Below are positions 19,604 through 29,989 of a stretch of 64,000 nucleotides of DNA, one piece after another. The stretch is from Solimonas flava DSM 18980 (GTDB lineage Bacteria; Pseudomonadota; Gammaproteobacteria; Nevskiales; Nevskiaceae). The DNA lies in assembly GCF_000426685.1 (NCBI RefSeq), contig NZ_AUFV01000003.1, positions 248,001 through 312,000 on the forward strand, written 5' to 3'. The translations under genes and the position numbers were made by a program. Positions within the stretch are counted from its first letter, which is position 1. Each line of letters starts with the position of its first letter. A model generated the notes under the pieces. The model ran no database searches. It saw nothing but the letters and a program-made list of their open reading frames with translations, and was not told the DNA's origin.

Positions 19604-20950
19604 TCACTTGCCGATGCAGAAGCTCGCGAAGATACGCCCGAGCAGATCCTCGCTCGTGAAGCGCCCAGTGATCTCGCCGAGCGCTTCGTGCGCCAGGCGC
19701 AGGTCCTCGGCGGCGAGTTCGGGCATCGAGCGCTCGGACAGGCGCTGCGCAGCCTGCCGCAGATGCGCGGCGGCGCGGCGCAGCGCCTCGACGTGGCGCG
19801 TGCGCGCCGAGAACGCGCCTTCGCCGCCGGCGTGCAGGCCGGCGTGGCGGTGGATCGCGTCGATGAGGCTTTCGATGCCTTCACCGGTCGCCGCCGACAG
19901 ATGCAGTTCGTCCGCGCTCTCCGCACGCGTACCCAGCGTCGGGACCAGATCGCACTTGTTGTGCACGATCAGCCGCGGCAGCGACGGCGGCAGCGCTTCG
20001 AGCAGGCGCCGGTCCTCGGCACTGAGGCCGCTGCGCGCATCGACGATGAACAGCGCCAGCTCGGCCTGCTCCAGCGCGAGACGCGCACGGCGGATGCCTT
20101 CGCGTTCGACCGGATCGTCGGACTCGCGCAGGCCTGCGGTGTCGACCAGCGTCACCGGCAGACCGCGCAGATCGAGGTTCTCGCGCAGCACGTCGCGCGT
20201 GGTGCCGGCGATCTCGGTGACGATCGCGATGTCGGCGCCGGCCAGGCGATTGAGCAGCGTCGACTTGCCGACGTTCGGCCGGCCGGTCAGCGCCACGGTG
20301 TAGCCGTCGCGCAGGCGCCGGCCCTGCGCGGCCCGCGCCAGCAGCTCGTCGAGCGCGGCGCGCGCGGCTTCGAGCCTGGTGCCGAGCGCACCGTCGGCCA
20401 GCCAGTCGACGTCCTCATCGGAGAAGTCGAGCGCACCTTCGACGTACATGCGGATCTCGACGAGCTGCGCGGCGATCGCCTCGACGCGGCGCGAGAACTC
20501 GCCTTCGAGCGAGCGCTGCGCGGCGCGCGCCGCTTCGGCCGTCGCGGCATCGATCAGATCGGCGATCGCTTCGGCCTGGGCGAGATCGATGCGCTGATTC
20601 AGGAAGGCGCGTTCGGAGAACTCGCCCGGCCGCGCCAGGCGCGCACCGGCCGCGCAGGCGGCCTGCACGATCAGTTGCAGCGCGACCGGACTGCCGTGCG
20701 CCTGCAGCTCGACGACGTCCTCGCCGGTGAACGAGTGCGGTGCGGGGAAATGCAGCAGCAGGCCGCTGTCGAGCACGCTGCCGTCGGCGGCGCGGATGTG
20801 CCGCAACGCCGCCGTGCGCGGCGGCGGCAGCGGCGCGGCGAGCTGCGCGGCGATCGCGGCGGCCCGCGGACCGGACAGGCGCACGATGCCGACGCCGCCA
20901 CGACCGGGAGCGGTGGCGACGGCAACGATGGTGTCGTTCGGAATCGGCAT
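19604..20950 (-). CDS. mnmE: tRNA uridine-5-carboxymethylaminomethyl modification GTPase MnmE
   Basis: MnmE works with MnmG to modify the wobble uridine of certain tRNAs. The 448-residue protein has the N-terminal folate-binding domain, the helical domain and an inserted GTPase domain. GTPase motifs are GRPNVGKST near residue 222, DTAGLR and NKCD, and the characteristic C-terminus is FCIGK. It follows yidC by 75 bases in the conserved rpmH-rnpA-yidD-yidC-mnmE order. The usual neighbours mnmG, rsmG and parAB do not follow it in this window. Confidence 0.97.
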   Translation of the reverse strand: MPIPNDTIVAVATAPGRGGVGIVRLSGPRAAAIAAQLAAPLPPPRTAALRHIRAADGSVLDSGLLLHFPAPHSFTGEDVVELQAHGSPVALQLIVQAACAAGARLARPGEFSERAFLNQRIDLAQAEAIADLIDAATAEAARAAQRSLEGEFSRRVEAIAAQLVEIRMYVEGALDFSDEDVDWLADGALGTRLEAARAALDELLARAAQGRRLRDGYTVALTGRPNVGKSTLLNRLAGADIAIVTEIAGTTRDVLRENLDLRGLPVTLVDTAGLRESDDPVEREGIRRARLALEQAELALFIVDARSGLSAEDRRLLEALPPSLPRLIVHNKCDLVPTLGTRAESADELHLSAATGEGIESLIDAIHRHAGLHAGGEGAFSARTRHVEALRRAAAHLRQAAQRLSERSMPELAAEDLRLAHEALGEITGRFTSEDLLGRIFASFCIGK

Positions 20951-23549: not shown

Positions 23550-23558
23550 TGTGGATAA
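23550..23558 (-). promoter_or_regulatory. Consensus DnaA box upstream of dnaA
   Basis: The nine bases are the perfect DnaA box TTATCCACA read on the minus strand. The box lies in the rpmH-dnaA gap, 15 bases before a TATAAA sequence at 23573-23578 that could be the dnaA -10 element. It would therefore cover the -35 region, which fits DnaA autoregulation. Confidence 0.8.
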
Positions 23559-23654
23559 GTTGTGACCGAAACTATAAACTTCCGGTCCGGCGCCCGCGCG
23601 CGCTCCCACCGTTGCACGGTCGTGCCCACGACCGCGTCTCACACCCAAAAATCA

Positions 23655-24992
23655 ATGCAAGAAGAGGATCTCTGGGCGCAGTGCGTGCGCTGGCTGGAAG
23701 GTGAATTGCCGGACCGCGACATCCATACCTGGATTCGCCCGCTGCAACCCGTTTTCGTACGCGATCGCCTCACGCTGCTGGCGCCGAACCGCATGGTGCT
23801 CGAACGTGTCCGCCAGGACTTTCTCGAGCTGATCCGTCGCGGAATCAAGGTCAGCGGCGGCCGCGACATCAGCGAGGTCGAGATTGCTGTCGGCGCAGTC
23901 GATGCGCGCGCTGCGGCGAGCAGCGGTCCGGCCGGCGTCGAACCGGCACCCGCGGTCGAGGAACCGGCACCGCTGCCGTCCGGAAAGCTGAACCCGGACT
24001 ACACCTTCAAGAACTTCATCGAAGGCAAGTCGAACTCGCACGCGCGAGCGGCAGCCCAGCATGTCGTCGAGGAGCCGGGCGGCACCTACAACCCGCTGCT
24101 GATCTACGGCAGCTCCGGCCTCGGCAAGACGCACTTGATGCACGCGGTCGGCAACGCGCTGCAGGCTGACCGCCGTGCTCGCGTCGTCTATGTCGGCGCC
24201 GAGCAGTGGATGAACCAGTTCACGGCCGCCATCCGCCACGGCCGCATGGACGAGTTCAAGAACCTGTATCGCTCGATCGACGCGCTGCTGATCGACGACA
24301 TCCATTTCTTCGCGCACAAGGAACGGACCCAGGAAGAGTTCTTCCACACGTTCAACGCGCTGATCGACGGCCGCAAGCAGATCGTGCTGACGTCCGACCG
24401 CTATCCGAAGGACGTCGACGGCATCGACGACCGACTGAAATCGCGTTTCACGTGGGGGTTGTCGGTCGCGGTCGAGCCGCCGGATCTGGAGACGCGCGTC
24501 GCGATCCTGCTGGCCAAGGCCGACCAGAACAAGGTCGCGTTGCCCAAGGAAGTGGCACTGTTCGTCGCCCAGCGCGTGCGCTCGAACGTGCGCGAACTGG
24601 AGGGTGCGCTGCTGCGCCTGTCGGCCAGTTCCCGCCTGCGCGGCGAACCGCTGACCGTCGAATTCGCGCGCGCCACGCTCAAGGACATGCTGGCGGCCTA
24701 CGAGCGCATGGTGACGATCGACAACATCAAACGCACGGTGGCGGCGTACTACAACATCCGCGTCGCCGACCTGAACTCGCCACGCCGTACGCGCTCGCTG
24801 GCGCGGCCGCGTCAGGTGGCGATGGCGCTGGCCAAGGAACTGACGCAGCACTCGCTGCCCGAGATCGGCGAAGCCTTCGGCAAGGATCACACGACCGTGC
24901 TGCATGCCTGCCGCAAGATCGCCGAGCTGCGCGAAGAAGATGTGAAGTACCGGGAAGACTACGAAAACCTGCAACGGCAGCTCGGTTTTTGA
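23655..24992 (+). CDS. dnaA: Chromosomal replication initiator protein DnaA
   Basis: DnaA binds DnaA boxes and opens the origin. From the ATG at 23655 the protein has 445 residues. It starts MQEEDLWAQCVRWLEGELPD, the family's domain I. Walker A GSSGLGKTHL lies near residue 152, Walker B LLIDDIHF near 210, and the DNA-binding signature FGKDHTTVLHACRKI at the C-terminus. An in-frame GTG at 23562 would add 31 residues unlike the family and begins upstream of the likely -10, so I reject it. No clear Shine-Dalgarno sequence precedes the chosen ATG. Confidence 0.96.
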   Translation: MQEEDLWAQCVRWLEGELPDRDIHTWIRPLQPVFVRDRLTLLAPNRMVLERVRQDFLELIRRGIKVSGGRDISEVEIAVGAVDARAAASSGPAGVEPAPAVEEPAPLPSGKLNPDYTFKNFIEGKSNSHARAAAQHVVEEPGGTYNPLLIYGSSGLGKTHLMHAVGNALQADRRARVVYVGAEQWMNQFTAAIRHGRMDEFKNLYRSIDALLIDDIHFFAHKERTQEEFFHTFNALIDGRKQIVLTSDRYPKDVDGIDDRLKSRFTWGLSVAVEPPDLETRVAILLAKADQNKVALPKEVALFVAQRVRSNVRELEGALLRLSASSRLRGEPLTVEFARATLKDMLAAYERMVTIDNIKRTVAAYYNIRVADLNSPRRTRSLARPRQVAMALAKELTQHSLPEIGEAFGKDHTTVLHACRKIAELREEDVKYREDYENLQRQLGF

Positions 24993-25233
24993 CAAGCTGT
25001 GGGCCGGAACAGGGACGACTATGGGGGCACGGCTTGGTACAAGCTGTGGATAAAATCAGTCCAGATTTTATGCACAGGATCCAAGGGGGCTTCTTGGAGT
25101 ATGAACAGGTTCTGTAGTTCTGCTGTAAGTATTTAATTTTTATACATATAAATTAGATATCCACAGCACTGTCGCGAGTCTATTGTTGTTAGATTTGAAT
25201 TTGTTCGAAAGACAAGGGTGATGGGATAAGGCT
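24993..25233. other. Probable oriC in the dnaA-dnaN gap
   Basis: The 241-base gap holds a perfect DnaA box (25045-25053, minus strand) and two boxes with one mismatch (25068-25076 and 25157-25165, plus strand). An AT-rich run at about 25126-25160 could unwind. The surrounding DNA is GC-rich, so this stretch stands out. Position beside dnaA and next to the strand switch of housekeeping genes agrees with an origin; a second box cluster may lie before dnaA. Confidence 0.75.
25045..25053 (-). promoter_or_regulatory. Consensus DnaA box in oriC candidate
   Basis: The nine bases read TTATCCACA on the minus strand, an exact DnaA box. The near-match TTATGCACA (25068-25076) follows 14 bases later on the opposite strand. 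Confidence 0.85.
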
Positions 25234-26334
25234 ATGAAACTGCAAGTGGGGCGAAATGAATTGCTGTCGGCGCTGTCGGCGGTCATTGGCGTCGTCGAGC
25301 GCAGGCAGACCTTGCCGGTCCTGTCGAACTTCCTTCTGGAACTCAAAGATGACGAGCTGATCGTCACCGGCACCGATCTGGAGATCGAGCTGGAGGCCCG
25401 GGCTCGCGTGCAGAATCTGGCGCCGGGCCGGGCGACCGTCCCGGCCCGCAAGCTCTTCGATATCTGCCGTGGTCTGCCTGAAGGGGCCGAAATCAGCCTG
25501 GATGTCGGCAGCGACAAAGCCTTGCTCAAGTCCGGGCGCAGTCGTTACTCGCTGTCCTGCCTGAAGGCGGAAGAGTTTCCGGCGCTCGGCCGCGTCAGCG
25601 AAGGCAAGACGCTGAGCCTGCCGCGCCAGCAGCTGCGGGGCCTGATCGAGCGCACGCAGTTCGCGATGGCGCAACAGGATGTCCGTTACTACCTCAACGG
25701 CACCTTGCTTGAAGTCGACGCCAAGCGCGTCCGCGCGGTTGCCACCGACGGGCATCGTCTGGCGCTGAGCGAGATTGAAGTCGAGACCGGCGTGGGCGAG
25801 AAACTGCAGGTGATCGTGCCGCGCAAGGCGGTGCTGGAACTGCAGCGTCTGCTCGACGCAACCGAGGAGCCGGCGACGGTGAAGATCGGAGCGTCGCAGA
25901 TCGAAGTCGATCTGGACGTGGTGCGCCTGACGACGAAGCTGATCGATGGCCGCTTCCCGGACTACGAGCGGGTGGTGCCGGAATCGGGTGACAAGAAGCT
26001 GCAGGCCGACCGCGAAACCGTGAAGCGGGCGCTGGCCCGCACGGCGATCCTTTCGAACGAGAAGTTCCGCGGCGTGCGTCTGACGATCGAGGGCAGCAAG
26101 CTCAGCCTGCAGACGCACAATCCCGAGCACGAGGAGGCGGAGGAGGATCTCGAGGTCAGCTATGAAGGCGGCCCGATCGAGATCGGCTTCAACGTCAACT
26201 ATCTGCTCGATGCGCTCGGCGCACTGAACAGCGAGCAGTTCGTGATGGAGCTGAAGAACGCGGATTCGAGCGGATTGATACATGCCGCCGACAGTCTTGC
26301 GAGCAAGTACGTCGTCATGCCGATGCGACTCTGA
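25234..26334 (+). CDS. dnaN: DNA polymerase III beta sliding clamp
   Basis: DnaN is the ring-shaped processivity clamp of the replicative polymerase. The 366-residue protein matches the family length and has the three repeated clamp domains. It starts MKLQVGRNELLSALSAVIGV, contains RRQTLPVLSNFL and ATDGHRLAL, and ends SKYVVMPMRL. It follows the oriC candidate and is succeeded by recF after 30 bases. Confidence 0.98.
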   Translation: MKLQVGRNELLSALSAVIGVVERRQTLPVLSNFLLELKDDELIVTGTDLEIELEARARVQNLAPGRATVPARKLFDICRGLPEGAEISLDVGSDKALLKSGRSRYSLSCLKAEEFPALGRVSEGKTLSLPRQQLRGLIERTQFAMAQQDVRYYLNGTLLEVDAKRVRAVATDGHRLALSEIEVETGVGEKLQVIVPRKAVLELQRLLDATEEPATVKIGASQIEVDLDVVRLTTKLIDGRFPDYERVVPESGDKKLQADRETVKRALARTAILSNEKFRGVRLTIEGSKLSLQTHNPEHEEAEEDLEVSYEGGPIEIGFNVNYLLDALGALNSEQFVMELKNADSSGLIHAADSLASKYVVMPMRL

Positions 26335-26364: not shown

Positions 26365-27429
26365 ATGCGGCTCGCGCAGCTCAAGGCTGACAACTTCCGT
26401 TCGCTGCAAAGCCTGAGCCTGCTGATTCCCGGCAGGCTCAATTTGTTTGTGGGCGAGAATGCGGCCGGCAAGACGACGCTGCTGGAGTCGATCTACGTTC
26501 TCAATCGCGGACGTTCGTTTCGTGGCAGCAGTTCTCAGGAGTTGGCCGGGCGGGAGAGCCGGCAGTGGACGCTGTTCGGACGTTATGCGTCTGCGTCGTC
26601 CCTGGGGCACTCACTCGGCATGCGCTGGGACGGTCAGGGCCTCGAGACACGACTCGACGGGGCAGCGGCGACGACGCTGGACTTGTTGCGGCTATGTCCG
26701 ACGCAGATCCTCGAGCCGGGCATGCATCGCATCGTCCAGGATGGACCGACGTATCGGCGCAGCTTTATCGATTGGGGAGTGTTCCACGTGGAACACTCGT
26801 TTCTGGACGTCTGGCGCCGCTACCGCCGGGCGCTGCGGCAGCGAAACCAGCTGCTGCGTCAGCAGCGTGGAGAACGCGAGCTCGCGGCCTGGGAGCCGGA
26901 GCTGGCGGAGGCCGGCGAGCAGCTCGACGCGCTGCGCCGGCGGCACCTGGAACAGATCGCACCGCGTGCCACCGAGCGGATCGACGCGCTCATGCGTGAA
27001 GGCGAGTGGCACTTCGAGCTGCTGCGCGGCTGGCCGGCAGGCATAAGCTTGCGGGAAGCGCTGACCCAGCAGCGCAAGCGCGATCTGCAGTTCGGCACGA
27101 CCCTGAACGGTCCCCATCGTGCCGAGCTGCGCATCCGCGCCGATGATCGCGGGATCCGGCATCGCATCAGCCGCGGCCAGCAAAAGCTGTTGCTGGCGGC
27201 CTTGCTGCTCGCGCAGTGCGAGGAAGTTCACCGGCAGACCGGCATTGCGCCGATTCTATTAGTCGATGATGTTGCCGCCGAACTCGCGGAACCGTATCTG
27301 GACAATCTGCTGGGGGCGCTGGCGGCCTATGCCGGGCAGGTGTTCATGACGGCGTTCGAGCTGAATGCAGCGCTGAAGCGTCTCGATCCCGCCGTGTTCC
27401 ACGTGGAACATGGAACGGTGCGTTTCTGA
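26365..27429 (+). CDS. recF: DNA replication and repair protein RecF
   Basis: RecF is an SMC-like ATPase that helps load RecA at single-strand gaps. The 354-residue protein has Walker A GENAAGKTT near residue 29, the signature ISRGQQKLLLAALLLAQ, and Walker B ILLVDDVAAEL. Length is normal. Two perfect parS-type palindromes lie inside the gene; both are read as the hexapeptide VFHVEH, once in the middle and once at the C-terminus. It lies between dnaN and gyrB. Confidence 0.97.
   Translation: MRLAQLKADNFRSLQSLSLLIPGRLNLFVGENAAGKTTLLESIYVLNRGRSFRGSSSQELAGRESRQWTLFGRYASASSLGHSLGMRWDGQGLETRLDGAAATTLDLLRLCPTQILEPGMHRIVQDGPTYRRSFIDWGVFHVEHSFLDVWRRYRRALRQRNQLLRQQRGERELAAWEPELAEAGEQLDALRRRHLEQIAPRATERIDALMREGEWHFELLRGWPAGISLREALTQQRKRDLQFGTTLNGPHRAELRIRADDRGIRHRISRGQQKLLLAALLLAQCEEVHRQTGIAPILLVDDVAAELAEPYLDNLLGALAAYAGQVFMTAFELNAALKRLDPAVFHVEHGTVRF
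26780..26795. promoter_or_regulatory. parS: parS-type centromere site 1, inside recF
   Basis: The 16 bases TGTTCCACGTGGAACA form a perfect palindrome identical in its core to known ParB-binding parS sites of Proteobacteria, which have the consensus TGTTNCACGTGNAACA. The site lies about 1.7 kb from the oriC candidate, as expected for chromosome-segregation centromeres. It is read in recF as VFHVEH. Confidence 0.85.
27395..27410. promoter_or_regulatory. parS: parS-type centromere site 2, at the 3' end of recF
   Basis: A second exact copy of TGTTCCACGTGGAACA, 615 bases from the first. It also encodes VFHVEH, just before the RecF stop. Two identical 16-base palindromes this close cannot reasonably be chance. 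Confidence 0.85.

Positions 27430-27490: not shown

Positions 27491-29989
<2,499 letters not shown>

Follow-up and report, generated by a model that had tools for sequence, protein, structure and literature searches.

The recF gene of this Solimonas carries two identical palindromes which, judging from their sequence and company, we predict with high confidence to be the chromosomal centromere (parS) of the organism. Both lie in the window (the whole 64-kb stretch of DNA that was analysed) and both are perfect 16-bp copies of TGTTCCACGTGGAACA, site A at 26780..26795 and site B at 27395..27410 (strandless features, 615 bp apart from start to start). Their host (26365..27429, + strand, 354 aa; TIGR00611, 327 bits, cut-off 172) translates each of them as VFHVEH, at residues 139-144 and, near the C-terminus, at residues 344-349 of 354. 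The initial annotation had given the two exact palindromes at these coordinates, their in-frame reading in RecF and their match to ParB-binding parS, and all three statements held. The 16-mer is identical to parS2/parS3 of Pseudomonas aeruginosa, described as the sites of highest ParB affinity in that species, parS1 differing at the last base only (PMC4368675). In a comparison with the parS consensus, taken as TGTTCCACGTGGAACA (the published form being TGTTCCACGTGGAACM; PMC5098823), both copies showed 0 mismatches over the 16-bp palindrome.

A chance origin of the palindromes was rejected on the basis of shuffling and base composition. Allowing up to 3 mismatches, TGTTCCACGTGGAACA has 2 matches in all in the window, both exact, against a chance mean of 0.12 (none of 100 shuffles reached 2), and the number of exact copies expected from the base composition of the window is 0.0003. 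The whole draft genome (4,460,203 bases in 27 contigs) holds exactly two exact copies, both in recF, and no copy at 1 mismatch; weaker matches occur at two places with 2 mismatches and at nine with 3. A control pattern (the 16-mer reversed, thus of the same letters) matched 9 places at up to 3 mismatches genome-wide, and therefore only the two exact copies stand out. The 16-mer is, then, not scattered over the genome; a random scatter would have spoken against the original proposal.

The neighbourhood of the sites is that of a replication origin. Upstream of recF are dnaA (23562..24992, + strand; TIGR00362, 546 bits) and dnaN (25234..26334, + strand; TIGR00663, 347 bits), and the gap between them (24993..25233, strandless) is the oriC candidate, with DnaA boxes at 25045 (exact) and at 25068 and 25157 (1 mismatch each). 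Further boxes fall outside this gap at 23550 (exact) and 27457 (1 mismatch), and gyrB follows recF (27521..29989, + strand; TIGR01059, 957 bits). Measured from the gap, the two sites are about 1.6-2.4 kb away, in agreement with the distance of less than 2.5 kb claimed earlier, and thus belong to the origin region; at this distance they would be copied early. By analogy with studied systems, a ParB dimer supplied by the distant parAB operon would load as a CTP-bound clamp at each palindrome and slide over the surrounding DNA, with ParA moving the two freshly copied origins apart.

The predicted partner proteins are encoded elsewhere. A genome search placed parB on contig C9, in one cluster with rsmG and a ParA-family gene, the window being part of contig C3. 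The parB product matches TIGR00180 with 185.5 bits and the adjoining rsmG scores 126.9 bits; the neighbour of parB matches ParA-family models, the best (NF041546) with 116.7 bits, under that model's cut-off of 180. ParA- and ParB-family genes are thus present, and the ParB contact residues are of the parS type: R173 and G201, which separate parS-type ParB from the Q173 and R201 of Noc (PMC7383237), are both found, together with N178, which is common to Noc as well. Position 162 is H, as in 61 of 67 comparison ParBs, and position 204 is K, as in 4 of the 67.

The block mnmE-mnmG-rsmG-parAB is usual in many bacteria. As was claimed at the outset, the window contains mnmE (19604-20950, minus strand, 462 bits) but not parAB, and since rsmG, parA and parB share another contig, the block appears to be split. 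Since ParB works in trans, this separation is no obstacle to function. The distance from parB to the sites is at least about 313 kb, as computed from contig ends and assuming one circular chromosome. In ten Nevskiaceae genomes with both on one contig, the recF site is 182-674 kb from the best ParB match; across Gammaproteobacteria the median is 19 kb in 67 genomes, with at least 180 kb in only 4 of the 67. These distances were read by hand, and the requirement for a shared contig favours short ones in draft genomes; G164 (contig size not seen) and G226 (a weak match without a ParB-type motif) were left out, and for relatives the best-scoring match was taken as the parAB-linked ParB, its parA neighbour being assumed. 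It appears that in Nevskiaceae parAB came to lie hundreds of kilobases off while the centromere stayed in recF. Our literature search found no published account of this remote parAB, and the analysis points to Nevskiaceae as a family with an apparently remote parAB and a recF-resident centromere.

To place the Solimonas pair in its class, a RecF model was searched in 177 genomes, of which 145 passed the cut-off and 32 did not; leaving aside our own genome and three split genes (G135, G199, G203), 141 recF genes were analysed. At up to 2 mismatches from TGTTYCACGTGRAACA, 106 of them have two sites, 27 have one and 8 have none, so that 133 of the 141 carry at least one. The spacing of the two sites is narrow (median 621 bp; 599-669 bp in 105 of the 106 genes and 465 in the remaining one), and 65 exact copies were observed in these genes against a maximum of 0 for shuffled palindromes. 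Overall, most of the class sample retains a pair of such candidate sites, recognized by sequence, in recF. Within Nevskiales and below, Solimonas included, 61/61 genomes carry one or more copies with no more than 1 mismatch and 56/61 carry two or more, counted anywhere in the genome. Outside the class, 20 recF genes from other classes of Pseudomonadota (drawn from 68 same-phylum genomes, nearly one per family) showed no parS-like match within 2 mismatches. A ParB-family match over the cut-off occurs in 142 of the 145 class genomes, albeit the model also matches the control genome of E. coli, and therefore a match by itself is weak evidence for a chromosomal ParB. We found no published account of a class-wide pair of sites in recF; this does not establish priority, as a key 2007 survey (Livny) was outside the literature covered.

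One reading frame is common to 366 of the 368 sites in 221 recF genes (the named set described below included), the exceptions being L262 and L247. In L262 an exact parS lies in the site-2 region in a different reading frame, and thus the DNA stayed while the peptide changed. Among the 27 one-site genes, 8 have a further site (up to 2 mismatches) within 160 bp downstream of the stop codon. The locus L131 is cut off by a contig end close to its 3' end, which makes its missing second site uninformative. The named set comprises 80 loci gathered partly by means of a peptide pattern that overlaps site 1, and serves for examples only: at least two matches were found in 50 loci (in L067 the second is outside recF), one in 28 and none in 2, and the 30 loci with fewer than two are 28 from Vibrio, 1 from Photobacterium and 1 from Paraferrimonas.

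Could the 16-mers have nothing to do with segregation and merely follow from a conserved VFHVEH peptide and the usual choice of codons? The peptide is indeed widespread: 118 of the 141 genes have FHV[EK] at site 1 and 111 have it at site 2. It is absent from both places in all 8 zero-site genes, so that the peptide goes with the site. In the 20 outgroup RecFs, F-x-V is often seen at site 2, with FHVE in 0/20 at site 1 and 1/20 (L316) at site 2, and the peptide was therefore partly preadapted; in Vibrio it is kept without a perfect palindrome. Codon choice at this peptide in relatives, the comparison that the initial annotation had called for, speaks strongly for the palindrome. With expected counts drawn from the other codons of the same recF genes, 219 of 229 FHV[EK] peptides are written with the three parS codons together, against 16.8 expected. 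Taken singly, H is CAC in 224/229 (expected 100.8), V is GTG in 224/229 (76.6), E is GAA in 182/182 (94.5) and K is AAA in 47/47 (28.5). The three-codon usage holds in genomes of low (80/87), middle (76/77) and high GC (63/65), and at a GC of 60% or more GAA is used at the sites in 60/60 cases against 37% elsewhere in the same genes. The one site in the other reading frame and those just past the stop codon likewise argue against an explanation from the peptide. On the codon test we reject the peptide alone as a sufficient account, and give it almost no credence. As far as sequence comparison goes, selection is shown to act on the DNA of these codons, beyond the RecF peptide alone, and the codon usage, together with the paired changes of the core described below, is the DNA-level selection expected of a chromosomal parS.

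The other alternatives grant the sites a function of a different kind. A different DNA-binding protein might recognize them, such as the second ParB homologue of this genome (L012), in which case the canonical ParB would act at other sites. This homologue, encoded beside folE, has R173 and G201, and two or more ParB matches are present in 32 of 33 Nevskiaceae genomes searched. On the other hand, the Solimonas genome offers the canonical ParB no other parS-like site within 1 mismatch, and 109 of the 145 class genomes searched have a single ParB match; we consider this possibility very unlikely. The main role might also be control of the dnaA-dnaN-recF-gyrB operon through ParB spreading, with segregation secondary. 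An excess of ParB is reported to lower expression of most of the genes PA0003-PA0015 in P. aeruginosa, and its authors suggest that ParB at recF parS1/parS2 interferes with the replication operon; the same report has it, however, that at native ParB levels the genes adjacent to parS1/parS2 are not regulated (PMC5521831), and a single oriC-proximal parS is described as enough for segregation (PMC4368675, PMC5098823). A primarily regulatory role is in our judgement improbable, and a centromere remains the preferred reading.

As a kind, parS in recF is already known from P. aeruginosa, where parS1 and parS2 lie inside this gene (PMC5521831, PMC3909081); the claim that a coding sequence doubles as a centromere is upheld for the Solimonas RecF, and it had this precedent. 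The likeness extends to the operon, the palindrome (parS1 having one terminal mismatch) and the position near oriC (PMC4368675, PMC5521831, PMC3909081, PMC5098823). The P. aeruginosa sites are bound by ParB, as those of Solimonas are predicted to be. P. aeruginosa also has two further strong sites, the intergenic parS3 and parS4, and its parAB is about 7 kb from oriC; in Solimonas there are two in recF only, with parAB at the far greater distance given above. Mutation of the P. aeruginosa sites (silent where intragenic) is reported to lower the affinity for ParB in vitro by 2- to 10-fold at nearly every site tested, and mutated parS1, parS2 and parS3 lost their effect in an in-vivo test (PMC4368675). 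A site with 2 mismatches did not restore segregation in vivo (PMC5098823), and loss of parS in this species is described as disturbing segregation or raising the number of anucleate cells (PMC4368675, PMC5098823).

In Xanthomonas citri a 16-bp palindrome is also found near the origin, in this case the one-mismatch site TGTTCCACGTGGAACG at the 3' end of dnaN (PMC3937727), and a screen of random parS insertion in Caulobacter gave one unexplained hot spot that covered recF and gyrB (PMC5815017). Chromosomal parS sites in general differ in number, spacing and host gene from the Solimonas arrangement, in which a single gene holds two sites, spaced about 0.6 kb, at fixed codons. Noc-binding sites (NBS) are a related kind of site bound by a related protein, Noc having Q173 and R201 (PMC7383237). 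An identity of the palindromes as NBS was rejected, as the Solimonas ParB and the second homologue both have R173 and G201.

The evolution of the pair can be followed in genes whose palindrome core has changed. Among the 106 two-site genes, the core is altered at both sites in 6, at a single site in 3 and at neither in 97 (Fisher p about 1.1e-7). The six both-changed genes come from six families and carry differing changes. In these loci, L245 (G143), L154 (G082), L185 (G207), L203 (G220), L216 (G063) and L260 (G088), the altered cores are the same or similar inside each pair (CATATG, CACATG, CACGTA, CATGTG and others). They possibly constitute a set of natural shifts in ParB specificity. In 4 of the 6 genomes residues 170-173 of ParB are other than G-[K/R]-S-R, against 7 of the 67 comparison ParBs (p=0.004 for a motif chosen post hoc, with a comparison set in which the site is changed or missing in at least 3 genomes). 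Of the four variant motifs, three are also seen in comparison genomes, and several of the substitutions are shared with genomes whose sites are canonical, for example G157, G179 and G122. The association of ParB contact residues with changed cores is thus only suggestive.

Loss of the pair was followed mainly in 70 loci with longer flanks, since the upstream flanks are about 120-180 bp in 110 of the 141 genes; as these loci were picked so as to cover every zero-site and every one-site gene, they form a biased sample. A simple rule by which recF without dnaN upstream has no site was discarded, as its support (the dnaN end missed by a crude regex in 6/8 zero-site genes vs 20/133 genes with sites, p=0.0005) is unreliable with short flanks. 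In four of the 70 loci neither dnaN nor gyrB was found in the roughly 3 kb around recF. One of them, L289, has a single imperfect site; the other three, L264, L266 and L267, are without any, L266 and L267 being from one genus, with weak ParB matches. In G191, the genome of L264, parS lies 18-25 kb from parB and about 0.95-1 Mb from recF. G213 has neither a ParB match nor a site within 1 mismatch in the genome, whereas ParB and the two sites are all present in G084, of the same genus. E. coli, the family of which is said to be without chromosomal par genes (PMC4368675), shows CFHNEP and MFTVEK in its RecF where the two sites would be, with a 3-mismatch relic at site 2 only. These few cases suggest that the pair was lost where recF left the origin or ParB was gone; exceptions stand against a strict rule. 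Five genomes with a ParB match have a recF without a site (G102, G119, G200, G108 and G230, with 0, 2, 1, 2 and 1 places within 1 mismatch elsewhere, respectively), and in the first three recF is still beside dnaN. Conversely, G172 and G173, drafts that are 90% and 95% complete, keep a site without a ParB match.

Vibrio and Photobacterium (28 and 1 loci; L044-L091) all keep FHVEH at site 2 with CAT for CAC (29/29) and have lost the site-1 peptide; L073 and L077 also have GTC for GTG at site 2. The peptide can therefore outlive a perfect parS, and site 2 of these genera may be a relic or an altered, weak site.

Taken together, these data lead us to propose, as a probable though less secure reading than the centromere assignment itself, that recF of this class has been a dual-coded centromere in two parts since ancestral times. 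Near the base of the class, two parS sites spaced about 0.62 kb would have become fixed in it; the need of the DNA would have frozen the codons and dictated two F-H-V-E/K segments of RecF, these relaxing where recF left the origin or ParB was lost. The presence of two sites, and their narrow spacing, may have a function as well. Being kept in most of the class sample, a protein-coding centromere of this kind provides a natural test of DNA-level selection shaping a protein, and recF sequences would let the loss, movement and change of specificity of a centromere be read off.

Among closer relatives, the RecF of this Solimonas is 94% identical to that of S. variicoloris. The second ParB homologue (L012:1477-2277, match at C7:69130-69651; 266 aa; TIGR00180, 155 bits) keeps R173 and G201. 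No ParA-like ORF was seen beside it by eye in the 3.5-kb locus, and six loci showed no common palindrome near it that could be its own target. The adjacent folE gene is found next to this homologue also in 3 of the 5 relatives checked.
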